64,000 bases of DNA from an uncultured Bradyrhizobium sp. (lineage in GTDB: Bacteria > Pseudomonadota > Alphaproteobacteria > Rhizobiales > Xanthobacteraceae): assembly GCF_947648125.1 (NCBI RefSeq), contig NZ_CANSMR010000003.1, forward strand, positions 248,001 through 312,000. The letters are read 5' to 3'. This document shows, one piece after another, positions 48,134-61,812 of this stretch. Numbering within the stretch: position 1 is the first letter of the stretch; each line of letters opens with the position of its first letter. The position numbers and the translations under genes were made by a program. The notes under the pieces are model-generated. The model was given only the letters and a program-made list of their open reading frames with translations, ran no database searches and was not told where the DNA came from.

Positions 48134-48183
48134 GACGCGTTTTCTTCACGCGAACCGGTATCCACTTCGCTCGAAAACGCTCT
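48134..48183 (+). repeat. Dispersed palindromic element, copy 3
   Basis: GACGCGTTTTCTTCACGCGA ... GCTCGAAAACGCTCT. Its right end overlaps the phnN stop codon (TAG on the minus strand, 48182-48184), so the element is inserted exactly at the end of phnN. Confidence 0.85.
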
Positions 48184-48778
48184 AGTCGTCCCAGCGCTCG
48201 CCCTTGATGATGCGGACAAGCTGTCGCGCGTGATATTCGGCGGTGCCGGAATTGACGATGGTGAAATCGGGCGTCGACGTGCTTTCGTCGACGGTGCGGG
48301 CCAGCCGCTGCGCGAGCAGCCCGTCGCTGCTGCGTGCCCGCATCGCGAGCCGCGCTGCGAGCACATCCGGCGGCGCCGTAATCGAGACAACCACGGCATT
48401 GGCGTAGTTGCGGCGGGCGGCTGCGATCACCGTGCGGGAGACATTTGCGATCACGGTGCGCCCGGCACTGATTTCGTCGTTGATCGCCCGCGACAGCGCA
48501 TAACGATGGCCGTGAGCTTCCCAGTGCATGGCGTAGTCGCCGGCGGCGACCGCACGCTGGAAGGCGTCCGCGCTGACCTCCTCATTGTCCTCCGACGACG
48601 AGGCCTGGCGAGTGATCAGGCGACGGGGAAACACGATGCTATGATCGCCGGTGCAGGCCGCCTTCGCCAGCCCCAGCAGCGTGTCCTTGCCGGCGCCGCT
48701 CGGACCGACCACCAGGATCAACCGGCCGGGACCGATCGTGCTGGCGTGTTGCGCGGCGACGGCAGGGACTTCGCTCAT
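48182..48778 (-). CDS. phnN: Ribose 1,5-bisphosphokinase
   Basis: 198 residues. PhnN phosphorylates ribose 1,5-bisphosphate to PRPP, closing the C-P lyase pathway. The P-loop GPSGAGKDTL is at about 25-34, and the guanylate-kinase-like fold is apparent in RRLITR and the YAMHWEAHGHRYAL substrate segment. Overlaps the phnM stop by four bases (ATGA). Its presence implies that ribose 1,5-bisphosphate is produced in this cell, which normally needs a PhnP-type phosphodiesterase. Confidence 0.94.
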   Translation of the reverse strand: MSEVPAVAAQHASTIGPGRLILVVGPSGAGKDTLLGLAKAACTGDHSIVFPRRLITRQASSSEDNEEVSADAFQRAVAAGDYAMHWEAHGHRYALSRAINDEISAGRTVIANVSRTVIAAARRNYANAVVVSITAPPDVLAARLAMRARSSDGLLAQRLARTVDESTSTPDFTIVNSGTAEYHARQLVRIIKGERWDD

Positions 48779-49929
48779 GCGACCCTGGCTCCTTCGCGCC
48801 AGACGCTGCGCACCACAGGCAGATCGCGCGCGACATGCACGCGGATCAGATCCGCGCGCCTGCCGACCGCGATCTCGCCGCGATCGGTTAGCCCGACCGC
48901 CTCGGCCGGCGTCTTGGTCACTGTGCGCACGGCGGAGGCGAGATCGATTGCCGGCACATGCCGCGGCAGTTGCAGTGCCGCCATCAGCAGGCTGGAGGGG
49001 ATGTAGTCCGACGACAGGATATCGAGCATGCCCTCATTGGCGAGATCGACGGCGGCGATATTGCCAGAGTGCGAGCCGCCGCGCACCACGTTCGGCGCGC
49101 CCATCAGGATGTCGATGCCGGCGGCGTGCAGACCGCGCGCGGCTTCCATCGTGGTCGGAAATTCCGCGACCGCGACCTTGTCATTGACGGCGTCGAGCAC
49201 GTTCTCATCCGTGGTGTCGTCGTGGCTCGCCAGCGGTATCCTGTACTCATGCGCCAGCGCGACGATCGCGCGGGTGTTCGCCACCGCATATTCCTTCTGA
49301 TAGGCGAAACGCCGGGCGAACAGCACGTCGAGCTGGGCGTCGGTCATGCCGCCGCCCTTACCGCGGTAGTAATCGCGCAGCTTCACCTCGTCGCGGAACT
49401 GGCGCTGGCCCGGCGTATGATCCATCAGCGACATCAGCCGCACGTCCGGCCGGTCGATCAGCTCCTTGGCCTCTGCGACGACATCCGGCATCGGCACTTC
49501 GCAGCGCAGATGCAGGAAGTGATCGGCGCGCAGCAGATTCTCCTCGCGCGCGGCCGAGATCGCCGCCGCCAGCACGCCGGCACGGCCGTCGACGTCCTCG
49601 GCACCGTCCTCGCGCCAGACCCGCAGCGAATCCAGCACCGTGGTGATGCCCGAGGTCGCGAGCTGCCCGTCATAGGAGATCACGGCAGCGACCGGATTCC
49701 AGAACACCTTCGGCCGCGGCACGTAGTGCATCTCGAGATGGTCGGTGTGCAGCTCGATCAGGCCGGGCATCAACAGATCACCGCCGGCGTCCTCCGCCGC
49801 TTCGGGCGCCCTGCCCTCGCCGAACTCGGCGATCTTGCCATCAGCGATCGCGACCCAGCCCTGCTCGATCACGCGATCGGCGAGGACCAGCCGGGCGTTG
49901 CCGATGATGGTGTCTTGCTTCGCAGTCAT
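48775..49929 (-). CDS. phnM: Alpha-D-ribose 1-methylphosphonate 5-triphosphate diphosphatase (first copy)
   Basis: 384 residues. PhnM hydrolyses ribose-alkylphosphonate 5-triphosphate to 5-phosphate plus pyrophosphate. The amidohydrolase-like metal site is seen in LIELHTDHLEMH near residue 60 and in [25 protein letters not shown] and SSDYIPSSLL near 300 are the family marks. It is in the middle of the minus-strand phn operon, 13 bases after phnL. A second, divergent copy is present at 59876-61048. Confidence 0.94.
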   Translation of the reverse strand: MTAKQDTIIGNARLVLADRVIEQGWVAIADGKIAEFGEGRAPEAAEDAGGDLLMPGLIELHTDHLEMHYVPRPKVFWNPVAAVISYDGQLATSGITTVLDSLRVWREDGAEDVDGRAGVLAAAISAAREENLLRADHFLHLRCEVPMPDVVAEAKELIDRPDVRLMSLMDHTPGQRQFRDEVKLRDYYRGKGGGMTDAQLDVLFARRFAYQKEYAVANTRAIVALAHEYRIPLASHDDTTDENVLDAVNDKVAVAEFPTTMEAARGLHAAGIDILMGAPNVVRGGSHSGNIAAVDLANEGMLDILSSDYIPSSLLMAALQLPRHVPAIDLASAVRTVTKTPAEAVGLTDRGEIAVGRRADLIRVHVARDLPVVRSVWREGARVA

Positions 49930-49942
49930 TTCAAACAGTCCT

Positions 49943-50653
49943 TCAGGCAGCAGCCGCGAACGAAGTCACGTCCACGATACGGTCGGCAATCAGATGGCGG
50001 ATTTCGTCGTCATGGACAATCGCGACCATCGCGACGCCCTTGGTCTTTTTCTCCGCAATCAGTTCGACCACCACTGCGCGATTCGCCGCATCGAGCGAAG
50101 CGGTCGGCTCGTCCAGCAGCAGGATCGGCAGGTCCGAGATGAAGCCGCGCGCAATGTTGACGCGCTGCTGCTCGCCGCCGGAGAAGGTCGAGGGCGGCAA
50201 GGTCCACAGCCGCTCCGGGATGTTGAGTCGGCGCAACAGTCTCCCGGCGCGTTCGCGGGCTTCCTCGCGCGCCACGCCGTTGACGATCAACGGCTCGGCG
50301 ACGACGTCGATCGTCGCCACCCGCGGCACCGCGCGCAGGAACTGGCTGACATAGCCGATCGTCGAGCGGCGGATGCTCAGCACCTGGCGCGGCTCGGCGG
50401 TCGCGAGGTCAACAACCTTGCCGCGATGGCGGATTCCGATCCGGCCGCTGTCGCAGCGATAATTGCCGAAGATCATCTTCAGGATCGAGGATTTGCCGGC
50501 GCCCGACGGGCCCGACAGCACCACGCATTCGCCCGGATCGGCGTGGAACGAGACGCCGCGCACCACGGGCAGCTCGACGCCGCCTTGCAGATGCATGGTG
50601 AAGGTCTTCTCGGCGTTGGCAAGTTCGATCATCGCGGTCATTGGCAAGCTCAT
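49943..50653 (-). CDS. phnL: Phosphonate C-P lyase system ABC-type subunit PhnL
   Basis: 236 residues. ABC ATPase motifs: Walker A GPSGAGKSS, signature TFSGGEQQRVN, Walker B LLLDEPTASLD. PhnL is not a transporter partner; with PhnK it binds the C-P lyase core complex and couples ATP to it. A start codon is uncertain between ATG 50653 (overlapping phnK by four bases) and ATG 50632 (MIELANAEKTF), because MSLPMTA is not needed for the fold. Confidence 0.93.
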   Translation of the reverse strand: MSLPMTAMIELANAEKTFTMHLQGGVELPVVRGVSFHADPGECVVLSGPSGAGKSSILKMIFGNYRCDSGRIGIRHRGKVVDLATAEPRQVLSIRRSTIGYVSQFLRAVPRVATIDVVAEPLIVNGVAREEARERAGRLLRRLNIPERLWTLPPSTFSGGEQQRVNIARGFISDLPILLLDEPTASLDAANRAVVVELIAEKKTKGVAMVAIVHDDEIRHLIADRIVDVTSFAAAA

Positions 50654-51447
50654 GGCGGCAGTATCGAGGAAACGAGCAGCTGGGTATAGGGCTCGCGGGG
50701 ATCGTCGAGCACCTGGTCGGTAAGACCGGTCTCGATGACGCGGCCGCCCTTCATCACCATCACGCGATGCGACAGCAGGCGCGCGACCGCGAGATCGTGG
50801 GTCACGACGATGGCGGCAAGGCCGAGCTCGCTGACGAGGTTGCGCATCAGGTCGAGCAGGCGCGCCTGCACCGAGACGTCGAGGCCGCCGGTCGGCTCGT
50901 CCATGAACACCAGCCGCGGCTCGGTGACGAGGTTGCGCGCGATCTGCAGCCGCTGCCGCATGCCGCCGGAATAGGTCTTCGGCGCATCGTCGATGCGGCC
51001 GACATCGATCTCGACCCGATCGAGCCAGGTCGATGCGGTGTCGCGGATTCGGCCGTAGTGATTCCAGCCGACCGCCATCAGCCGCTCGCCGACATTGGCG
51101 CCGGCCGAGACGCCCATGCGCAATCCCTGCGCCGGGTCCTGATGCACAAAACCCCAGTCGGTGCGGAACAGGAAGCGACGCTCCGCTTCGCCGAGTTCGG
51201 CGAGATCGCGCAGCACGCCGTCGCGCATCCGGTAGGACACCCGTCCCGCGCTCGGCGCGAGCTGCGCGGAAAGCAGTTGCAGCAGCGTCGACTTGCCCGA
51301 CCCGGACTCGCCGACGATCGCCAGCACCTCACCGGGATAGAGCGCGAACGAGACGTCGCGGCAGGCCGGGAGCCGGCCGTAGTTCTTGGCAAGCCCCTCG
51401 GCCACCAGCAGCGGCTGATCGTTGTCGAGGCCGACGAGCTCAGACAT
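50650..51447 (-). CDS. phnK: Phosphonate C-P lyase system ABC-type subunit PhnK
   Basis: 265 residues. ABC motifs: Walker A GESGSGKST, signature YSGGMRQRLQ, Walker B LVFMDEPTGGLD. PhnK binds directly to PhnJ in the PhnGHIJ core and is needed for C-P cleavage. It overlaps phnJ by eight bases and phnL by four, indicating tight translational coupling. Confidence 0.95.
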   Translation of the reverse strand: MSELVGLDNDQPLLVAEGLAKNYGRLPACRDVSFALYPGEVLAIVGESGSGKSTLLQLLSAQLAPSAGRVSYRMRDGVLRDLAELGEAERRFLFRTDWGFVHQDPAQGLRMGVSAGANVGERLMAVGWNHYGRIRDTASTWLDRVEIDVGRIDDAPKTYSGGMRQRLQIARNLVTEPRLVFMDEPTGGLDVSVQARLLDLMRNLVSELGLAAIVVTHDLAVARLLSHRVMVMKGGRVIETGLTDQVLDDPREPYTQLLVSSILPP

Positions 51448-52324
51448 GCGCCTTCTCCTTGTGCGGCGCCGCGCTCTCGGTGCCGAAATAGCCGGCCGCC
51501 TGGCGCTGCTCGCAGAAGTCGGTATCGGAGCAGACGAACATCCGCCCGCCCTTGTCGTCGGTGACGATCTCGTCGAGATAGGAATTATCGGCGCCGCACA
51601 GCGCGCAGGGCGCGTCGAAGCGGTAGCGCGTGAACGGGTGATCCTCGAAATCCAGCGAGACCACGGTGGTGTAGGGCGGGATCGCGTAGATGCGCTTCTC
51701 GCGGCCGGCGCCGAACAGCTGCAGCGCCGCGCAATTGTCCATCTTCGGATTGTCGAATTTCGGGGTCGGCGACGGGTCCATCACGTAGCGCGCATTCACC
51801 TTCACCGGGTAGGCGTAGGCGGTCGCGATGTGGCCGAAGCGCGCGATATCCTCGTAGAGCTTGACGTGCATCAGCCCGTATTCGGCGAGCGCGTGCATGC
51901 GTCGCGTCTCGGTCTCGCGCGGCTCCAGGAAGCGCAGCGGTTCGGGGATCGGCACCTGATAGACCAGCACCTGCCCGGCGTGCAGCGACGCTTCGGGAAT
52001 GCGATGCCGGGTCTGGATCACGGTCGCGTCCGTGGTCGAGGTCGTGGTCGCGACCCCCGCGGTCTTGCCGAAGAATTTGCGGATCGAGATCGCGTTGGTG
52101 GTGTCGTCCGAACCCTGGTCGATCACCTTCAGCACGTCATCGGGCCCGAGGATCGCCGCCGTCACCTGCACGCCGCCAGTGCCCCAGCCATAGGGCATCG
52201 GCATCTCGCGACTGGCGAACGGCACCTGATAGCCGGGGATCGCAATCGCCTTCAGGATCGCGCGGCGGATCATCCGCTTGGTCTGCTCGTCGAGATAGGC
52301 GAAATTGTATGTCGGCGCGTTCAT
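51440..52324 (-). CDS. phnJ: C-P lyase catalytic subunit PhnJ
   Basis: 294 residues. PhnJ is a radical SAM enzyme that breaks the C-P bond of ribose alkylphosphonate, releasing alkane. The four conserved cysteines are C240, C243, C265 and C271, corresponding to C241/C244/C266/C272 in the E. coli protein; the radical-bearing glycine is Gly31 (Gly32 in E. coli) in AIPGYQVPFASRE. All required residues are present, so the enzyme should be active. The gene overlaps phnI by four bases and phnK by eight. Confidence 0.97.
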   Translation of the reverse strand: MNAPTYNFAYLDEQTKRMIRRAILKAIAIPGYQVPFASREMPMPYGWGTGGVQVTAAILGPDDVLKVIDQGSDDTTNAISIRKFFGKTAGVATTTSTTDATVIQTRHRIPEASLHAGQVLVYQVPIPEPLRFLEPRETETRRMHALAEYGLMHVKLYEDIARFGHIATAYAYPVKVNARYVMDPSPTPKFDNPKMDNCAALQLFGAGREKRIYAIPPYTTVVSLDFEDHPFTRYRFDAPCALCGADNSYLDEIVTDDKGGRMFVCSDTDFCEQRQAAGYFGTESAAPHKEKAHV

Positions 52325-53424
52325 TCCGCGGCCTCCTGCATTTCCACGGCCGCGTTGGCTTCCGCGAACTCCTGCCGCAGCTTGCGCAGCAGGCCGAGCT
52401 CGGACTGGAAGTCGACGTAGTGCGGCAGCTTGAGATGCTCGACGAAGCCGGTCGACTGCACATTGTCGGAGTGCGACATCACGAATTCCTCATCCTGCGC
52501 CGGCGCCCCCGCCTCCTCGCCGAGCTCGCGTGCGCGCAGCGCGCGATCGACCAGCGCCATCGACATGGTCTTGCGCTCGCTCTGGCCGAAGGCGAGGCCG
52601 TAGCCGCGGGTGAAGCACGGCGCCTCGGTCGTCGAGCCCTTGAACTGGTTGACCATCTGACACTCGGTCAGTTCGATCGAACCGAGCGGCACCGCGAAGC
52701 CGACGTCCTCGGCCGAGAATTCGACCTCGACCTCGCCGAAGCGGATCTCGCCGGCGAAGGGATGGTTGCGGCCGTAGCCGCGCTGCGTCGAATAGCCGAG
52801 TGCGAGCAGGAAGCCCTCGTCGCCGCGCGCCAGATTCTGCAGCCGCAGATCGCGATCGGCCGGGAAGCTCAGCGGCTCGCGCGTGAGGTCGCCGACCGCC
52901 GCGTCGCTATCGGCCTGCGGCGACGTTTCGATCAAGCCGTCGCGGCCAAGGATGTCGGTGACCCGCGGCGTTGACGCCTGCGAGGCTTCCGCGGTCATCG
53001 GCTGTTCCGGCACAAAGCCTTCAGCAAGCTGCGGGTCGAGCAGACGATGGGTGTAATCGAAGGTCGGCCCCAGGATCTGGCCGCCCGGAACGTCCTTGAA
53101 GGTCGAGGAGATGCGCCGCCGCACCTGCATCTCGCCGGTGTTGACCGGCTCGGTGGCGCCGAAACGCGGCAGCGTCGCGCGGAAGGCGCGAACCAGGAAG
53201 ATCGCCTCGATCATGTCGCCGCGCGCCTGCTTGATCGCGAGCGCCGCGAGCTCGCGGTCGTAGAGCGAGCCTTCGGTCATCACGCGGTCGACGCCGAGCG
53301 CGAGCTGCTCGGAGATCTGCGCCAGCGTCACCTCGGGCACATCGCGATCGCCGCGCCGCTCATGCGCCAGCAGCCGATGAGCGTTCTCGATGGCGCGCTC
53401 GCCTCCCTTGACGGCTACATACAT
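52321..53424 (-). CDS. phnI: C-P lyase complex subunit PhnI
   Basis: 367 residues. PhnI joins the phosphonate to the ribose of ATP, displacing adenine, as part of PhnGHIJ. The MYVAVKGGERAIENAHRLLA start and the GYGRNHPFAGEIRFGEVEVEF segment are conserved. It overlaps phnJ by four bases and follows phnH by three. Confidence 0.95.
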   Translation of the reverse strand: MYVAVKGGERAIENAHRLLAHERRGDRDVPEVTLAQISEQLALGVDRVMTEGSLYDRELAALAIKQARGDMIEAIFLVRAFRATLPRFGATEPVNTGEMQVRRRISSTFKDVPGGQILGPTFDYTHRLLDPQLAEGFVPEQPMTAEASQASTPRVTDILGRDGLIETSPQADSDAAVGDLTREPLSFPADRDLRLQNLARGDEGFLLALGYSTQRGYGRNHPFAGEIRFGEVEVEFSAEDVGFAVPLGSIELTECQMVNQFKGSTTEAPCFTRGYGLAFGQSERKTMSMALVDRALRARELGEEAGAPAQDEEFVMSHSDNVQSTGFVEHLKLPHYVDFQSELGLLRKLRQEFAEANAAVEMQEAAE

Positions 53425-53427
53425 CGC

Positions 53428-54036
53428 TCACACTCCGCTTGCCATCAGCCGCGTGGTGCGCGGGATCGCGACAATCTTGTCGTCATGGACCAGCACGACG
53501 TCGATGCCGCGCGGGAACAGCGCTTCATTGATCGACAGCCGCTGGAACAGGTCGCGCGGCTTGATCATCGCCTGCAACAGTGCGCTGCCGTCGATGCCGG
53601 GCCCCTTCAGCTCGAAGGCCGGTCCTTGCGTCAGGCTGTCGACCTGCAGGATCAGCGTGGTCGACCGGTCAGGATATTCGCTGCTGCCGAACGCGAAACG
53701 CTCGAGCGCCGGCAGGTTCGCCGCATCGCCGATCAGCGCGAAGCTTGCGATCGAGGAATCCGTAACCACCGGCGCGCTGGCGTGAAACTTCAGCCAGCGA
53801 GCGACATCCGGCGTCGCCGACATCGCGGCGTCGAGCCAGATCGGCGTGTCGTGATCGAACAGCGTCAGCGCGATCGCGGCCGAGCCGCGCATCATGCCGG
53901 CGGGCGTTCCGACATCAGCGGCGACGCGCTGCACGCTGCCCGGGCGCGCCATCGCATCCATCACGGAGCGGAACGTGGACTGCGCCGACAGCACCTTGTC
54001 GGCAAACCCTGCGGGCATTTCGGCAATCGTCGTCAT
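53428..54036 (-). CDS. phnH: C-P lyase complex subunit PhnH
   Basis: 202 residues from ATG 54036, four bases after the phnG stop. PhnH is a pyridoxal-kinase-like subunit of the C-P lyase core that helps bind the nucleotide substrate. Conserved pieces include FRSVMDAMARPG, LTLFDHDTPIWLD and the C-terminal FPRGIDVVLV. The upstream in-frame ATG at 54120 lies in phnG and is rejected. Confidence 0.95.
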   Translation of the reverse strand: MTTIAEMPAGFADKVLSAQSTFRSVMDAMARPGSVQRVAADVGTPAGMMRGSAAIALTLFDHDTPIWLDAAMSATPDVARWLKFHASAPVVTDSSIASFALIGDAANLPALERFAFGSSEYPDRSTTLILQVDSLTQGPAFELKGPGIDGSALLQAMIKPRDLFQRLSINEALFPRGIDVVLVHDDKIVAIPRTTRLMASGV

Positions 54037-54040
54037 TGCA

Positions 54041-54514
54041 TCATCCCTCACCGCGCACCATCGTGTAGAAATCAACCCGCGTTGCCGCGGTCTCCGCGGC
54101 CTTGCGGGCGCGTTCGGCATTCATCGCGACACGCAGCGGCGCGATCACCTTGGCCTCCACCTCGCCGGACAACTCCGCCGACTGCACCATGGCGTCGCAC
54201 AGCGCGATCATCTGCGCCTTGTGCGCATCGCGGCCGAGCGTGTAGCCGAAGCCGACCTCGCCGGTCGCAAGCCGCACCGCCGCGCGCGACACCGTCGCCT
54301 CGCCGAGATTGAACGGCGCACCGTCACCGCCGATCCGCCCGCGCATCATCACGAGGCCGTTCTCCGGCTCGCGCAGGTTCTCATGCGCGGGCACTGCGAT
54401 CGCGGCCAGCCGGCCTGCGATGTCGGCCGCGGCGGAGTGCGCCAGCACCGTCATCGCGGCCTTGCGCTGGCCCTGTTTGCTGTCTGGTCCGGTCGTACTG
54501 ATGGTCGAACTCAT
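54041..54514 (-). CDS. phnG: C-P lyase complex subunit PhnG
   Basis: 157 residues from ATG 54514, first gene of the minus-strand phn operon. It forms the PhnGHIJ core with an ATP-dependent phosphoribosyl-transfer step. Motifs: ENLREPENGLVMMRGRIGGDGAPFNLGEATVSR and VGFGYTLGRDAHKAQ. GCAAGG lies seven bases before this ATG. Two farther upstream ATGs would place the 5' end in the 32-bp operator, so they are not chosen. Confidence 0.93.
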   Translation of the reverse strand: MSSTISTTGPDSKQGQRKAAMTVLAHSAAADIAGRLAAIAVPAHENLREPENGLVMMRGRIGGDGAPFNLGEATVSRAAVRLATGEVGFGYTLGRDAHKAQMIALCDAMVQSAELSGEVEAKVIAPLRVAMNAERARKAAETAATRVDFYTMVRGEG

Positions 54515-54530
54515 GAGCAACCTTGCTTGC

Positions 54531-54562
54531 ATCAAGTTGTCTATGATAATAGACAACTTGAT
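54531..54562. promoter_or_regulatory. Probable PhnF operator (32-bp palindrome)
   Basis: ATCAAGTTGTCTAT-GATA-ATAGACAACTTGAT: perfect 14-base arms with a four-base spacer, in the gap between phnG and phnF, which diverge. The core TCTAT-N4-ATAGA resembles TATAGA-type sites bound by PhnF-like GntR/HutC regulators. Binding here would cover both promoters and give autoregulation. Confidence 0.8.
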
Positions 54563-54618: not shown

Positions 54619-55344
54619 ATGAGCATGCAGGAAAGTTCCGGCGTCGCCTTGTGGCGGCAGGTCGCTGACGGCATCGAGCGCGGCATCGCCGACGGCCGCT
54701 TCGCTGCAGGCGAAAAGCTGCCGGGCGAGATGGAGATCGCCGAGACTTACCGGGTCAACCGCCACACCGTGCGGCGGGCGCTCGCCGCACTCGCCGAGCG
54801 CGGCCTGGTGCGCGCCGAGCGCGGTAGCGGCACCTATGTCGAAGCCCAGCGCCTTGCCTATCCGCTGCGCTCACGCACGCGATTCTCCGAGATCGTCGGC
54901 GCCGGCGGCCATGAGCCGCGCGGCCAGCTGATCGATGCAGGCAGCGATGTTGCCAATCGCGAGATCGCGCGCGAGCTGGGTTTGAAGATTGGCGCGCCGC
55001 TGATCCGGATCGAAGCGGTGCGGCTCGCCGACCGGACGCCGATCTGCGTTTCGACCACCTGGCTGTCGGCCGAGCGGTTTCCCGATGCCGGCAGCGTGTT
55101 TGCCGACGTTCGTTCGATGACGAAGCTGCTCGGGCATTACGGCGTCAAGGATTACCGCCGCGCATCGACCCGGATCACCGCGGCGATCGCCGATGCGACC
55201 GACGCCGCACGGCTCGATCTGCCGCTGGGCCGGCCGGTGCTGGTGGTCGACGCGACCGACGTCGACATGCTGGACCGCCCGCTGGTGACCAAGCGCTCGC
55301 GCTTCGCCGCCGAGCGCGTGGAGTTTCTGGTCGAGAACGGCTGA
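54619..55344 (+). CDS. phnF: Phosphonate-utilisation GntR-family regulator PhnF
   Basis: 241 residues. Winged helix at 10-75 (GEKLPGEMEIAETYRVNRHTVRRALAALAERGLVRAERGSGTYV) and a HutC/UTRA-type ligand domain at about 90-235. It probably senses phosphonates or C-P lyase intermediates and represses the divergent phnGHIJKLMN genes by binding the 32-bp palindrome. It sits between the transporter and lyase operons, with phnE on its 3' side in opposite direction. Confidence 0.93.
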   Translation: MSMQESSGVALWRQVADGIERGIADGRFAAGEKLPGEMEIAETYRVNRHTVRRALAALAERGLVRAERGSGTYVEAQRLAYPLRSRTRFSEIVGAGGHEPRGQLIDAGSDVANREIARELGLKIGAPLIRIEAVRLADRTPICVSTTWLSAERFPDAGSVFADVRSMTKLLGHYGVKDYRRASTRITAAIADATDAARLDLPLGRPVLVVDATDVDMLDRPLVTKRSRFAAERVEFLVENG

Positions 55345-55382: not shown

Positions 55383-56231
55383 CTACGCCACTGCCCTTTG
55401 CCCGATGATTGCAAAGCGGAGCTTGCTCGAGATGAAATCGATCGCGGCGACCGCGATCAGGATCATCAGGATCAGGAACGACACCTTCTGCCATTCCAGC
55501 ACACGGATCTGCTCGGCGAGCTGTAGCCCGATGCCGCCGGCGCCGACGATGCCGATGATGGTGGCCGAACGGGTGTTCGACTCGATGAAATAGAGCACCT
55601 GGCCGGCGATCACGGGCAAGACCTGCGGCAGCAGGCCGAAGCGGATTTCATGCAGCGCGTTGCCGCCGGAGGCGCGGATGCCCTCGACCTGCTTGCGATC
55701 CGCGGCCTCGATCGCCTCCGAGAACAGCTTTCCGAACGCGCCGAAGTCGGAGACCATGATCGCCAGCACGCCGGCGAATGGCCCGAGGCCGACGACATTG
55801 ATCCAGACCAGCGCCCAGATCAGCGTATCGACGCCGCGGATCGAATCCAGGAAGCGGCGCACCGGAAAGCGGATCAGGTTCGACGGGATGATGTTGCGCG
55901 CCGCCAGCAGGCTGACCGGCAGCGCCAGCAGCGCCGCAAGCGTGGTGCCGAGCAGCGCGATCGACAGCGTTTCGCCGAGCGCCTGCATGTAAAGCGGGAA
56001 CGACGAGCCGGGATTCGGCGGGATCATCATCATGGTGATCCAGCCGAGCTGGCTCATCCCTGAGATCAGCTTCGTCGGCGAGAAGTCGAGATCGACCAGG
56101 CCGTAGACGAAGATTGCAAGCGCCACAGCGATCATGGCCGGCAGCGCCAGCCGTGCCGACGCCGGGCGTTCGAACACGCCGGGGTACTTCGCACGCAGTT
56201 CCGCGGTATCCGGCTTCGGCAGCTGGCTCAT
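55383..56231 (-). CDS. phnE: Phosphonate ABC transporter permease PhnE (second copy)
   Basis: 282 residues, six membrane helices. The permease signature is EAIEAADRKQVEGIRASGGNALHEIRFG then LPQVLPVIAGQVLYF, the EAA-loop region that contacts PhnC. It overlaps the upstream phnE paralog by four bases, so the two form a heterodimeric channel. It ends about 40 bases from phnF. Confidence 0.95.
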   Translation of the reverse strand: MSQLPKPDTAELRAKYPGVFERPASARLALPAMIAVALAIFVYGLVDLDFSPTKLISGMSQLGWITMMMIPPNPGSSFPLYMQALGETLSIALLGTTLAALLALPVSLLAARNIIPSNLIRFPVRRFLDSIRGVDTLIWALVWINVVGLGPFAGVLAIMVSDFGAFGKLFSEAIEAADRKQVEGIRASGGNALHEIRFGLLPQVLPVIAGQVLYFIESNTRSATIIGIVGAGGIGLQLAEQIRVLEWQKVSFLILMILIAVAAIDFISSKLRFAIIGQRAVA

Positions 56232-57112
56232 CGCCGGGTCTCCTTGCCGAACAGCCGGGCGCGCAGCCAGCCGGTCGAGATGTCGATAATGAAGACGGTG
56301 ACGATGATTGTGACGAGGATGGCGCTGACGTCGGAATAGTAGAACTTGCGGATCGCGACCACGAGCTCCTGCCCGATGCCGCCGGCACCGACGAAGCCCA
56401 TTACCGAGGCCTCGCGGACATTGATCTCGAAGCGCAGCAGCGCGTAGCTGGCGTAGCCCGCCGAGACCTGCGGCAGGATGGCAAAGCGCATGCAGGACAG
56501 CCAACTCGCGCCGGTGGAGCGGATGCCCTCGACCGGCTTCATGTCGGCATTCTCGACGATCTCGGCGAACAGCTTGCCGAGCGCTCCGGTGGTGTGGATC
56601 GCGATCGCCAGCACACCGGCCATCGGCCCGAGGCCGAACGCGATCACGAAGATCAGCGCGAACACGATGCCCGGCACGGTGCGGGCGAATTCGAGCAGGC
56701 GACGGATGATGAAGCGCACCCACGGTCCCGGCGAGGTGTTCTGGGCGGCAAGGAAATTCAGTGCAAAGGCGAGCACAGCACCGGTCAGGGTGCCGACATA
56801 GCTGATCAGCAGGGTCTCACCGAGCAGCCGCAGCCATTTCTTCAGGCCCCAGAACCATTCCACCGGATCGGTCCAGACCCGCGCACCGGAATCCAACGTC
56901 AGGATGCGGTCGAAATAGCTGACGAAGTTGCCGAAATAGGTGAAGAACGTGTGCAGGTTCACATCGGCGCCGAGCGCCGCGATAAACAGCGCCGCGCAGA
57001 ATACCGCAGCCGCGACCGTCGCCTTCAGCCGCTTGCGCGCGACCGCCTTGCGATAGGCATCGTTCAGCGTCGCCAGTTGCTGCGCTGGAAGGATGGAAAT
57101 GGCGGTCGCCAT
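56228..57112 (-). CDS. phnE: Phosphonate ABC transporter permease PhnE (first copy)
   Basis: 294 residues. Six membrane helices, EAA-loop region EIVENADMKPVEGIRSTGASWLSCMRFAILPQVS. It is the first permease gene downstream of phnD and overlaps its partner by four bases. In the closely related rhizobial systems two PhnE proteins (sometimes called PhnE1 and PhnE2 or PhnT) make the channel. A hairpin between phnD and this gene may reduce its expression relative to phnD. Confidence 0.95.
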   Translation of the reverse strand: MATAISILPAQQLATLNDAYRKAVARKRLKATVAAAVFCAALFIAALGADVNLHTFFTYFGNFVSYFDRILTLDSGARVWTDPVEWFWGLKKWLRLLGETLLISYVGTLTGAVLAFALNFLAAQNTSPGPWVRFIIRRLLEFARTVPGIVFALIFVIAFGLGPMAGVLAIAIHTTGALGKLFAEIVENADMKPVEGIRSTGASWLSCMRFAILPQVSAGYASYALLRFEINVREASVMGFVGAGGIGQELVVAIRKFYYSDVSAILVTIIVTVFIIDISTGWLRARLFGKETRR

Positions 57113-57193: not shown

Positions 57194-58123
57194 TCAGGAC
57201 GCCTTCTTGCGCAGGGCGTCGACGAACTTGATCAACTCGATGGTCTTGTCGTAGTCGGCGTTGGTGACCGGCTGCCACGGCAGGTTCTTGCCGTCGGACA
57301 GCTTCTTGAAGGCTTCCGGATCCTTCTTCGGCATGTCGAGGAAGGCCTGCTTGATCTTCGCCTTCATGTCGTCGGGAAGGCTCTCGAGATAGGCGTAGGG
57401 CGAGTTGATGATCAGGTCGGACTTCACGATGATGCGGAAGTCCTCCTTCTTCAGCGGCGTGCCGTCGCTCGACTTCACCATGTTCTTGGCGAGCATGCGG
57501 GTCAGGTTGGAATCGTCGTCGGCATTCCACCAGTTGGCGGCGACATCGACGGTGCCCTGCGCCAGCGCCAGCACGGCGTTCTCGTGGCTGCCGGTGAAGA
57601 CCACCTTGGAGAAATAGGTCTCCGGATCGATCCCCATCTGGTTCAGCTTGAAGCGCGGCATGTTGTTGCCGGAGGTCGAGTTGGGATCGACCAGGCCGAT
57701 ATTCTTGCCCTTGAGGTCTTCGACCTTCTGGTACGGGCTCTTGGCGAGCACGTAGAACACCGAATAGTAGCCCTTCGAACCGTCGGCATTGACGTCGATC
57801 ACGAACGCGTCGGTCTTGACGCCGGTGAGACGGGCGCGGGCGAACGACGCCGGGCCGTAGTAGCCGATGTGGATGTTACCGGCGCGCTGGCCCTCGATGA
57901 CGGCCGCGTAGTCGTTGGCAACGCGTAGGGTCACCTTGATGCCGAGTTCTTTGGACAGATACTCGGTGAGCGGACCGTAGCGCTCGGTGACGCCGGAGCC
58001 GTTTTCGGCGGGGATCACCGCGAAGGTGATTTCCGGATACTTGGCCTTCCAGTCCTCGGCCGAAGCCGATCCTGCGAACGCCAGCGCGGCGGCGCCGGCC
58101 AGAATGATGCGACGAGTGATCAT
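57194..58123 (-). CDS. phnD: Phosphonate ABC transporter substrate-binding protein PhnD
   Basis: 309 residues. Signal peptide of about 22 residues (MITRRIILAGAAALAFAGSASA). The mature domain has the phosphonate-binding family features: IPAENGSGVTERYGPL, IGYYGPASFARARL, NIGLVDPNSTSGNNMPRFKL. It is a periplasmic phosphonate receptor, the second gene of a minus-strand phnC-phnD-phnE-phnE operon. Hairpins flank the gene on both sides. Confidence 0.96.
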   Translation of the reverse strand: MITRRIILAGAAALAFAGSASAEDWKAKYPEITFAVIPAENGSGVTERYGPLTEYLSKELGIKVTLRVANDYAAVIEGQRAGNIHIGYYGPASFARARLTGVKTDAFVIDVNADGSKGYYSVFYVLAKSPYQKVEDLKGKNIGLVDPNSTSGNNMPRFKLNQMGIDPETYFSKVVFTGSHENAVLALAQGTVDVAANWWNADDDSNLTRMLAKNMVKSSDGTPLKKEDFRIIVKSDLIINSPYAYLESLPDDMKAKIKQAFLDMPKKDPEAFKKLSDGKNLPWQPVTNADYDKTIELIKFVDALRKKAS

Positions 58124-58198: not shown

Positions 58199-59014
58199 TC
58201 AGGCCGCGGCAGCGGTGCCGAGCGCCGGAGCAGCTGCGCCATCGGGAACGGGCAGCGGTGCCGCGCCCATGACGTCATTGGCCTCGAGGTCATAGAGCTC
58301 GCGGGCAATATGGTCGGTCAGCGCCGCCGGGGCGCCGTCGAACACCACGCGGCCCGCAGCCATGCCGACCAGGCGATCGCAATATGTTCGCGCGAGGTCG
58401 AGGGAGTGCAGGTTGCAGAGCACCGTGATGCCGAAATGCTTGTTGATGCGCAGCAGCGCATCCATCACGATCTTGGTGTTGCGCGGATCAAGCGAGGCGA
58501 TCGGCTCGTCGGCAAGAATGATGTCGGGCTCCTGCACCAGCGCGCGGGCAATCGCGACCCGCTGCTGCTGGCCGCCGGAGAGCTGGTCGGCGCGCTGCGC
58601 CGCGAGCTGGGCGATGTCGAACTGCTCGAGCGCCGACAGCGCGAGCGCCCTGTCCTGCTCCGGCCAGACCTGCGCCAGCGAGCGCCATGACGGGATCTGC
58701 GCCAGCCGGCCCATCAGCACGTTGGTCAGCACATCGAGACGGCCGACCAGATTGAATTGCTGGAAGATCATTGCCGAGCGCGCCCGCCACTGCCGCAGCG
58801 CCTTGCCGCGCAGCGCGGTCACATCGGTCCCTTCAAACAGGATACGGCCGGAGGTCGGATCGGCGAGACGGTTGATCATCCGCAGCAAGGTCGACTTGCC
58901 GGCACCGGAGCGGCCGATCACGCCGACAAAGCTGCCCGGCGCGATCGAAAAGGATGCATTGTCGACTGCGGCTTTTGTGCCGAACCGGCACGTCAAACCT
59001 TCCACCACCAGCAT
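58199..59014 (-). CDS. phnC: Phosphonate ABC transporter ATPase PhnC
   Basis: 271 residues from ATG 59014 (GGAGCATTAC upstream). ABC motifs: Walker [10 protein letters not shown], signature [10 protein letters not shown], Walker B IILADEP. Q-loop at [10 protein letters not shown]. The Ala/Pro-rich C-terminal tail ([16 protein letters not shown]) is extra compared with E. coli. First gene of the minus-strand transport operon, divergent from the acetyltransferase-phnM2 operon with Pho-box-like sites between. Confidence 0.95.
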
Positions 59015-59126
59015 GTAATGCTCCAACCGCGTCGCGTTGAGCCATCGCTATCCCCGGTGTTTAACAGTTATGTGACGTGACGTTGCAGTGCGGCGATCGT
59101 CCACACTGTCCCTTGCCGTTCCCTTG

Positions 59127-59213: not shown

Positions 59214-59879
59214 ATGGCCGGAAAAACACTCTCGGTTGTGCCGACGATCGACCCGACTGCGTCGGTGCGCGAGAGCAAGCTCGGCAAATATACCGAGGTC
59301 GGCGCGCGCACGATCCTGCTTGAAGTCAGCATGGATGACTATTCCTATGTCGTGAACGACAGCCAGATCACCTACACCTCGATCGGCAAGTTCTGCTCGA
59401 TCGCGGCGATGACCCGCATCAATCCCGGCAACCACCCGATGCATCGCGCGACGCAGGCGCATTTCACCTACCGCGCCAGCGCCTATTTTCCCGGCGAGAG
59501 CGACGACACCGACTTCTTCAACTGGCGACGTGCGCATCACGTGCATATCGGCCATGACGTCTGGATCGGTCATGGTGCGATCCTGCTGCCGGGCCGGAAC
59601 ATCGGAACCGGCGCCGTCGTCGCCGCCGGCGCGATCGTGACCAAGGATGTGCCCGCCTACACCATCGTTGCCGGTAATCCGGCGCGGCCGGTGAAGCGGC
59701 GCTTCTCCGAGACAACAGCGGATCGCCTCACATCGCTCGCGTGGTGGGACTGGGATCACGAAACACTTCGTCGTGTGCTACCCGACTTCCGTAAGCTCGC
59801 GGTCGAGGAATTTCTCGACAAGTATGAGGCCGAGGCCGTATCCCAATCACAGAACAAGCAACGGAGCGCGGCATCGTGA
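59214..59879 (+). CDS. Left-handed beta-helix acetyltransferase, phosphonate-associated (DapH/CatB-like)
   Basis: 221 residues from ATG 59214 with GGAGG upstream. Hexapeptide repeats ([56 protein letters not shown]) make a left-handed beta-helix. A chloramphenicol-acetyltransferase-like [12 protein letters not shown] loop follows. Proteins of this branch are often found in phn clusters and may acetylate aminoalkylphosphonates, the role PhnO (GNAT fold) has in E. coli. Its 3' end overlaps phnM2 by four bases. Confidence 0.85.
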
Positions 59880-61048
59880 CGGACATTTTCATCGAGGGCG
59901 GACGCACGCTGGCTGACGGTGCACTGATCGAGACCTCGCTGCGGACCTCAGGCCGCGACATTGGTGCAGTCGACGCCGAACAGGGCCGCGCCGCGCTCCA
60001 CATCAATGCCTGCGGCCTGCTGGTGCTGCCCGGCATCATCGATCTGCACGGCGATGCGTTCGAGCGGCAGATGATGCCGCGCCCCGGCGTCGATTTCCCG
60101 ACCGACGTGGCGCTGATCGACAGCGACCGGCAGGCGATCGCCAACGGCATCACCACCGTGTTCCATGGGACGACCTGGTCGTGGGAGCCTGGTCTGCGCA
60201 GCGCGGAGAATGCCCGCAAGCTGCTCGATGCGATCGAGGCGCTGCGGCCGCAGCTCGCCGCCGATACGCGCTTCCACCTGCGTCACGAGACCCACAATCT
60301 CGAGGCCGAGGCCGAAATCATTCAATGGCTCACGGAAGGCCGCATCGACCTGTTCGCCTTCAACGACCACAGCAACGTCAAGCCGAAGAAGCGCAACCAG
60401 CTGGCCGAACGCACCGGGCTGTCGCTCGAGGCCGTCAACGACATGCTCGATCGGATCGTGGCGCGCCGTCCCGAGGTGCCGGCGTCGATCGCGCGGCTGG
60501 CTGCCGCTGCACGTGCGGCAAACATTCGGATGCTCTCGCATGACGACAACAGCCCGGCGATGCGCCAGGAGTTTCGCGCGCTTGGTGCCACGATTGCAGA
60601 ATTCCCGGTCAATGAAGAGACCGCGCGCGATGCCGCTGCCGCCGGCGACTTCATCGTGTTCGGCGCGCCCAACGTGGTGCGCGGCGGCAGCCACACCGGC
60701 TGGACCAAGGCATCCGACATGATCGCACAGGGCCTCTGCTCGGTGCTGGCGTCGGACTACTATTATCCGGCGCAACTGCTCGCGGCATTCCGCCTCGCCG
60801 CCGATGGGATCCTGCCGCTCACCAAAGCCTGGGATCTGATCTCGTCGGCGCCGGCACGCGCGGCAGGGCTTGCCGATCGCGGCATGATCGCCGCGGGCCG
60901 CCGCGCCGACATCATTGTCGTCGACGACAAGGTGCCGCTGCGGCCGCGCATCGTCGCCGTGATATCAGCCGGACGGCTGGTGCATCTGGCGGACGCGAGC
61001 TGCCTCGTTCATTCGCTCGCACCGCGCAAGACGGTTGCGGCAGCATAG
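59876..61048 (+). CDS. phnM: Alpha-D-ribose 1-methylphosphonate 5-triphosphate diphosphatase (second copy)
   Basis: 390 residues from GTG 59876 (four-base overlap GTGA with the upstream gene). Metal-site segments [11 protein letters not shown] near 55-60 and SHDDNSPAM, plus [15 protein letters not shown] and [13 protein letters not shown]. It differs clearly from the first copy at 48775-49929, so both are likely functional paralogs rather than recent duplicates. It lies in an operon with the acetyltransferase and the DUF1045 gene. Confidence 0.92.
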
Positions 61049-61068: not shown

Positions 61069-61812
61069 ATGGCCAACACTCCACGCTACGCAATCTATTA
61101 TGCGCCGTCACCCGACAGCGTCCTGCACCACTTCGGTTCGACACTGCTCGGCTACGATGCCGTGTCGGGCGACGATCTGCCGTTTCCCGGTGGCGTTGCG
61201 CCCGACTGGCGCGAGGTGACGGAGGATCCGCGCAAATACGGCTTTCACGCCACGCTGAAGGCGCCGACCGCGCTCGCCAATGGCAGGAGCGAGTCCGAGC
61301 TGCTCGACGCCTGCGCTGCCTTCGCCGGCCGCGCGCGGCGCATTCCGGTGATCGAACCTGTCGTCGATTCCATCAGCGGCTTCATCGCCGTAATCCCGGC
61401 CAGCCGCTCGGATGATCTGCAACAGCTCGCCGCCGACTGCGTCACCGCGTTCGACACGTTCCGTGCGCCGCTGACGCCGCAAGATCGCGCGCGGCGCAAA
61501 CCCGAACAGCTCACGGAGCGGCAGCGCGACTATCTCGACCGCTGGGGCTACCCTTACGTCATGGAGGAATTCCGCTTCCACATGACGCTGACCGGGCGAT
61601 TGAGCGACGAGCGGCGCGGCCCGATCATGGCGCGGCTGCGCGAGCGGTTCGCGGCGATCGAGCTTGCGCGGCTGGCGATCGACCGCATCGCGCTGTTCAA
61701 GCAAGCCGACAGCGCATCCCGCTTCCGTATCATCGGCAGCTGGCCGTTGCGAGCGAGAGCGTTTTCGAGCGAAGTGGACACCGGTTCGCGTGAAGAAAAC
61801 GCGTCAAAATAA
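61069..61812 (+). CDS. DUF1045 phosphonate-metabolism protein, 2H-phosphoesterase-like
   Basis: 247 residues. Two His-x-Thr motifs (FHATLKAPT with His60, and FHMTLTG near residue 166) are the catalytic signatures of the 2H phosphoesterase superfamily, whose members open cyclic phosphates. The family is known to occur near phn genes. Its place in the operon behind phnM suggests a role on the cyclic phosphate that arises after C-P cleavage. The last 20 or so residues (RARAFSSEVDTGSREENASK) are translated from a dispersed palindromic repeat, which also gives the stop codon. Confidence 0.85.
   Translation: MANTPRYAIYYAPSPDSVLHHFGSTLLGYDAVSGDDLPFPGGVAPDWREVTEDPRKYGFHATLKAPTALANGRSESELLDACAAFAGRARRIPVIEPVVDSISGFIAVIPASRSDDLQQLAADCVTAFDTFRAPLTPQDRARRKPEQLTERQRDYLDRWGYPYVMEEFRFHMTLTGRLSDERRGPIMARLRERFAAIELARLAIDRIALFKQADSASRFRIIGSWPLRARAFSSEVDTGSREENASK
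61756..61805 (-). repeat. Dispersed palindromic element, copy 4 (inverted), inside the DUF1045 gene
   Basis: AGAGCGTTTTCGAGCGAAGTGG... GCGTGAAGAAAACGCGTC, reverse of the copy after dxs. It lies within the last codons of the DUF1045 gene (stop TAA at 61810-61812). Confidence 0.9.

Follow-up and report, generated by a model that had tools for sequence, protein, structure and literature searches.

A DUF1045 protein of the 2H type as the probable substitute for PhnP in a phosphonate island of Bradyrhizobium

The DUF1045 gene of the Bradyrhizobium phosphonate island studied here (positions 61069-61812, forward strand) encodes a 247-amino-acid protein of the 2H type (TIGR03223) which, judged by profiles and motifs, probably serves as a 5-phosphoribosyl 1,2-cyclic phosphate diesterase. 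We propose that it is a metal-independent two-histidine phosphodiesterase that opens the cyclic product of PhnJ and thereby replaces PhnP, a reading to which we assign a probability of about 0.8. The original prediction had suggested this replacement, and comparative sequence data support it: the source genome holds no over-cut-off PhnP, and DUF1045 and PhnP do not co-occur in any of 103 genomes with PhnJ. The substitution is very probably right, but the idea as such is already published.

Within the window, the whole stretch of 64,000 nucleotides that was analysed, the DUF1045 gene lies among C-P lyase genes. It is the last of a three-gene set on the forward strand that begins with a gene for a phosphonate-associated hexapeptide-repeat transferase (TIGR03308; 59088-59879) and continues with phnM2, a second phnM-like gene coding for an amidohydrolase (59876-61048; 673 bits against NF011985); this set adjoins phnCDE1E2, phnF and phnGHIJKLMN. 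As phnM2 ends a mere 20 bases upstream of the DUF1045 gene on the same strand, the two are likely to be co-transcribed. The GntR-type regulator gene phnF (54619-55344) is also on the forward strand, while the reverse strand carries phnC (58199-59026), phnD (57194-58123), a first phnE copy (56228-57112) and a second one (55383-56273), whose start at 56273 is an estimate; its open reading frame extends to 56723, and only residues 191-439 of 446 match PhnE. On the same strand follow phnG (54041-54556), phnH (53428-54120), phnI (52321-53424), phnJ for the C-P bond-cleaving subunit that produces the cyclic phosphate (51440-52324), phnK (50650-51447), phnL (49943-50653), phnM1 (48775-49929) and phnN for the ribose 1,5-bisphosphokinase (48182-48778), which would use the expected DUF1045 product. 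The presence of a phnGHIJKLMN island, as initially claimed, was thereby confirmed, with G, H, K, L, M and N identified by NCBIfam profiles, and I and J by Pfam (PF05861, 547.2 bits; PF06007, 492.2 bits; no NCBIfam match at E 1e-10 for either). The island thus contains two phnM-like genes, and the trio of transferase, phnM2 and DUF1045 recurs in Bradyrhizobium.

The original prediction further held that no phnP-like gene is present, and this holds true beyond the island. In the entire source genome (8.57 Mb, 71 contigs, listed as 100% complete), a profile search yielded no PhnP over the cut-off of 272.25 bits, only three weak matches scoring 36.3, 26 and 23.2 bits. We rejected the idea of a PhnP hidden among these, since they correspond to an RNase Z-like protein, a housekeeping-type metallo-beta-lactamase resembling NF038231, and PqqB; the first two score below the NCBIfam cut-offs of the families they resemble, and PqqB scores above its own. 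PhnPP, a member of the PHP family, was likewise rejected as the missing enzyme, as the two PHP-domain proteins of the genome are the alpha subunit of DNA polymerase III and an error-prone polymerase. As far as profiles show, neither of the known enzymes for the cyclic phosphate is encoded.

The DUF1045 protein is a full-length member of the curated family TIGR03223, titled "putative phosphonate metabolism protein" in NCBIfam (E 6.3e-83, 277.9 bits at a cut-off of 248.95, residues 6-228), and it matches the Pfam model PF06299 just as clearly (E 2.1e-58, 197.3 bits, threshold 24.3). Its nearest named matches are from Bradyrhizobium (B. tropiciagri, 90% identity). It contains H-x-[TS] motifs at two places only, HAT at residue 60 and HMT at residue 171, so that the claimed position of the first His-x-Thr motif (H60) was borne out, whereas the second begins at H171 and not at about H166 as had been stated. 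These two motifs, together with a match to the LigT_PEase model PF02834 above its gathering score (25.5 versus 23.3 bits), point to membership in the 2H superfamily; the score against PF13563 (23.7) stayed under 27. When its profile was compared directly with that of E. coli ThpR, only a chance-like match of 32 columns (probability 1.5) resulted, and a profile search of the PDB returned 2d4g (E 0.089) and 2fyh (E 0.35), both of which we take to be 2H proteins, without significance. Pfam scans found neither a lactamase-fold domain nor a PHP domain, and no TIGR03307 match appeared up to E 1.

Both motifs are highly conserved. Among 54 DUF1045 loci that had been fetched regardless of motif, 52 retain the HxT/S pair, and H60, T62 and H171 are invariant in an alignment of 50 sequences from which the two motif-broken proteins (L038, L082) and three near-copies (L076, L077, L085) were omitted. 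Further conserved residues in this alignment are Y10, K64, R132, R143 and Y161. The pair is also found in 86 of 86 DUF1045 proteins of a further set, a figure that for the first motif holds mostly by construction, because the search pattern by which 80 of the named loci were found contained the first HxT.

From these features a straightforward scheme can be drawn up. Cleavage of the C-P bond by PhnJ yields 5-phosphoribosyl 1,2-cyclic phosphate. DUF1045 would open this ring at the 2-oxygen, and the resulting ribose 1,5-bisphosphate, the established substrate of PhnN, would then be converted by it into PRPP. Acid-base catalysis would fall to the two histidines and binding of the phosphate to the threonines, and Y10, K64, R132, R143 and Y161 may bind the 5-phosphate. 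The proposed substrate and product are those of PhnP (TIGR03307), the metallo-beta-lactamase phosphoribosyl cyclic phosphodiesterase of E. coli-type clusters, but the fold families differ, with metal ligands in PhnP and two HxT motifs in DUF1045. The phosphoribosyl 1,2-cyclic phosphate diphosphodiesterase PhnPP would share its substrate with DUF1045 but gives ribofuranose 5-phosphate (PMC8774927), unlike the product proposed here. With the 2H enzymes, DUF1045 has the two HxT/S motifs in common, and ribose 1,2-cyclic phosphate chemistry is known for this group (PMC5283653).

The distribution of the two enzymes provides the main comparative evidence. A survey of 397 genomes from one phylum, all searched for PhnJ, DUF1045 and PhnP, found PhnJ over cut-off in 103 genomes, strong DUF1045 matches in 87 and PhnP over cut-off in 25, with at most 6 or 7 first-look candidates per genome scored for DUF1045 and PhnP. 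The DUF1045 matches exceed the TIGR03223 cut-off in 52 of the 87 genomes and lie below 248.95 in the other 35 (lowest score 196.9 bits). Dropped before counting were a genome with a below-cut-off PhnJ fragment (G040), three with DUF1045 scores of 21-33 bits (G180, G234, G349), and one with a below-cut-off PhnP of 108 bits and no PhnJ (G296). The 103 PhnJ genomes comprise 76 with DUF1045 only, 25 with PhnP only, none with both and two with neither; a co-occurrence of DUF1045 and PhnP in most clusters, which would have spoken against a replacement, was therefore not seen. Every one of the 25 PhnP genomes has PhnJ. Both states are met inside a single family (f46), with DUF1045 in G204 and G394 and PhnP in G312. 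A second draw of 377 genomes from the class of G394 contained ten PhnJ genomes, eight of them new; five of these have DUF1045 and three an over-cut-off PhnP, and only one (G454) has DUF1045 along with a PhnP homologue, which scores below cut-off and lacks the metal site.

The Fisher values for this exclusion are very small. On a tree of 81 PhnJ proteins, whose bootstrap is not fully settled, just two changes between the DUF1045 and the PhnP state are required, and the raw P values consequently overstate the exclusion. The tree omits L074, whose stretch has no phnJ, and the truncated L090; two rows with both enzymes were scored as DUF1045, two rows with neither were left uncounted, and the number of changes stays at two when the long branches L083, L084 and L192 are removed. 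The exclusion is thus a clean pattern that stems from few independent events. In G320 and G323, the two PhnJ genomes without either enzyme, a renewed PhnP search that scored all candidates found nothing over 30.5 bits, and no phosphodiesterase family was detected among the flanking genes scanned (six open reading frames of L055, phnN included, and one of L056). The loci concerned, L055 and L056, carry a full phnG-N set, and a genome with the genus code of G323 (G161) has PhnP.

Among the alternatives, it is conceivable, though in our estimation improbable, that a housekeeping metallo-beta-lactamase opens the cyclic phosphate and that DUF1045 performs another task in the pathway. Proteins of the PhnP superfamily do occur in the genome, for instance one at L002 with an N-terminal PhnP match of 42.8 bits, located beside what we read as a TatD-type gene from the neighbouring open reading frame, and the phnP genes assigned via KEGG in all seven Marivita genomes compared (PMC8774927), which run against the exclusion pattern, might be of this kind. 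The L002 protein lies far below the PhnP cut-off, and even its best fit, NF038231, is below cut-off (235.6 versus 360). Moreover, weak PhnP matches of this sort are found in 11 of 14 control genomes as well, so that such proteins would not account for the lack of over-cut-off PhnP in precisely those genomes that carry DUF1045.

A replacement of PhnP by DUF1045 predicts that PhnP may decay next to an intact DUF1045, and this is what we find in one genus. In G454, an intact DUF1045 (294.5 bits) shares its operon with a full-length PhnP homologue that scores 139.6 bits, half the cut-off, and the gene order phnJKLM-DUF1045-phnN-phnP is the same in its congener G744 (87% complete). Both decayed genes (L189:8268-9002 and L203:4942-5676, each on the reverse strand) have kept an open frame while their products have lost the metal site. 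Of the seven conserved metal-site residues, six are gone from the G454 protein, as is the otherwise conserved RNH histidine, but its structural site still has all three cysteines and its histidine; G744 shows the same loss of six of seven and likewise retains the structural cysteines. The roles of these residues are presumed ones, taken from the PhnP literature. Our alignment combined the decayed proteins with 14 of the 28 over-cut-off PhnP proteins and two other metallo-beta-lactamases. All seven metal-site residues are present in 13 of these 14 PhnP proteins, the remaining one having a single D to E exchange, and the HxHx[DE]H motif, missing from both decayed proteins, is present in the other 16 rows. 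The structural-site histidine is also missing from one over-cut-off PhnP (L186).

Between G454 and G744, the dN/dS value of PhnP (0.485) exceeds those of the seven other genes compared, among them phnN (0.409), DUF1045 (0.352) and phnJ (0.124); the decayed PhnP has thus kept its frame under weak constraint. Since two genomes of one genus are involved, it counts as one event. We tentatively suggest, at somewhat less than even odds, that DUF1045 took over the PhnP step in this genus, and that the dead yet constrained PhnP might either persist as a pseudoenzyme that has gained a new role in C-P lyase, one without catalysis, or mark a replacement caught half-way. In the excerpts available from the papers proposing a substitution by RcsF or DUF1045, a dead PhnP beside DUF1045 is not mentioned.

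The decayed PhnP also bears on a second alternative, which we hold to be about as improbable as the first, namely that DUF1045 yields ribose 2,5-bisphosphate by opening the other bond, or has a side product as its substrate, and would thus be a detoxifying or salvage enzyme and no true substitute for PhnP. Many 2H enzymes convert 2',3'-cyclic phosphates into 2'-phosphates (PMC5283653), and among 84 short stretches with DUF1045 and phnJ only 53 showed PhnN, a count of stretches that does not amount to absence from the genomes. With ribose 1,2-cyclic phosphate, 2H enzymes leave the 1-phosphate according to the same paper, and the exclusion of PhnP together with its decay points to DUF1045 and PhnP sharing one step.

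Genetic linkage ties DUF1045 to the phn genes in most genomes. In 59 of the 76 genomes, no more than 15 kb separate the gene from phnJ; in 15 it is on another contig and in two far off on the same contig. For PhnP, the distance to phnJ is at most 4.6 kb in all 25 genomes of the first draw. The 80 DUF1045 stretches from named organisms include phnM in 73 cases, at least one of phnG, phnH, phnI and phnJ in 58, and phnP in none. Among 140 DUF1045 loci, none showed a fusion of DUF1045 with PhnN, which was sought as a phnN on the same strand, at most 600 bases away and joined to DUF1045 by a continuous open frame. DUF1045 relatives were also observed in 145 of 72,556 records of a plasmid collection, 82 of them from Sinorhizobium, and several of those from Paracoccus adjoin an annotated phnN. 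Four genomes have an additional phn cluster (L250:10035, L251:9969, L252:9777, L253:10870) with a PhnJ that retains just one of the four C-terminal cysteines, residues that we presume to hold the Fe-S cluster; near these clusters, DUF1045 was not found in two cases, broken in one and intact in one. All four cysteines are present in the PhnJ of the window.

PhnJ was not found in 11 of the 87 DUF1045 genomes. In four genomes without a detected PhnJ (L035, L037, L043, L045), phnM, with or without phnN, adjoins DUF1045. The 14 DUF1045 copies without phn neighbours do not form one group on the DUF1045 tree (nine changes; starred branches force two), and they are more clustered than under shuffled labels (mean 12.7 changes; 4 of 500 shuffles as low). 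No common partner gene emerged for the copies away from phn genes; only L038, L051 and L082 share neighbours. L038:8001-8705 (forward strand) and L082:7974-8681 (reverse strand) are second DUF1045 copies beside a gene for an FAD-dependent oxidoreductase and have lost HxT residues, which their relative L051 retains. The copies without phn neighbours could be relics or serve a small side function. That DUF1045 is a general nucleotide or RNA cyclic phosphodiesterase, found in phn clusters by chance or co-regulation, is hardly probable: the 11 PhnJ-less genomes with their varied neighbours and the clustering of the phn-less copies favour it, but DUF1045 occurs in 76 of 103 PhnJ genomes versus 11 of 294 without PhnJ, the phn-less copies do not fall into a single group on the tree, and both motif-broken proteins are among them, as expected of relics.

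Against the replacement of PhnP by DUF1045, which we consider the best explanation, we count that two changes suffice on the PhnJ tree, the DUF1045 genomes without PhnJ, the 17 of 76 genomes in which DUF1045 is more than 15 kb from phnJ or on another contig, the two PhnJ genomes with neither enzyme, the Marivita phnP, the chance-like ThpR match and the weak PDB matches, the lack of a DUF1045-PhnN fusion, and the restriction of the dead PhnP to a single genus.

The replacement idea appeared in print in 2013, 2021 and 2023, under the name of either rcsF or DUF1045. A substitution of PhnP was proposed for rcsF (PMC3840354), and the same hypothesis was put forward for DUF1045 with reference to Hove-Jensen 2014 (PMC8235418). 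Of the 54 operons in a SEED survey that cites Podzelinska 2009, 27 had PhnP, and 16 that lack phnP had rcsF (PMC10574752). Since the gene order phnM, rcsF, phnN, phnL given in PMC5649143 equals the order phnM, DUF1045, phnN, phnL that we find in four loci (L065, L091, L092, L191), we infer that the published RcsF is DUF1045. Clusters with RcsF/DUF1045 resemble the window in the curated family, in the company of phnM and phnN and in having no phnP; they differ in that DUF1045 lies inside phnL-M-N, whereas it closes the transferase-phnM2-DUF1045 set in Bradyrhizobium. Indirect experimental support comes from a phnP-less fosmid with rcsF (inserts average 40 kb) that allowed growth on methylphosphonate of an E. 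coli strain deleted for phnHIJKLMNOP (PMC3840354), because this deletion includes phnP. In Phaeobacter, a DUF1045 protein is listed as raised under phosphate limitation along with PhnI, J, L and M (PMC10132767). Within the open-licence PMC literature, we found no assay of any DUF1045 protein.

If our reading is correct, DUF1045 would serve most of the C-P lyase genomes sampled (76 of 103, from one phylum) at the step that passes phosphonate phosphorus on to central metabolism. The family still bears the name "unknown function" in Pfam, and its Pfam and NCBI names could then be corrected. Where phosphonate use in soil and sea has been counted by phnP, the figures would need correction as well, and DUF1045 and PhnP would exemplify the replacement of an enzyme by a non-homologous one, with a genus that represents the intermediate stage.
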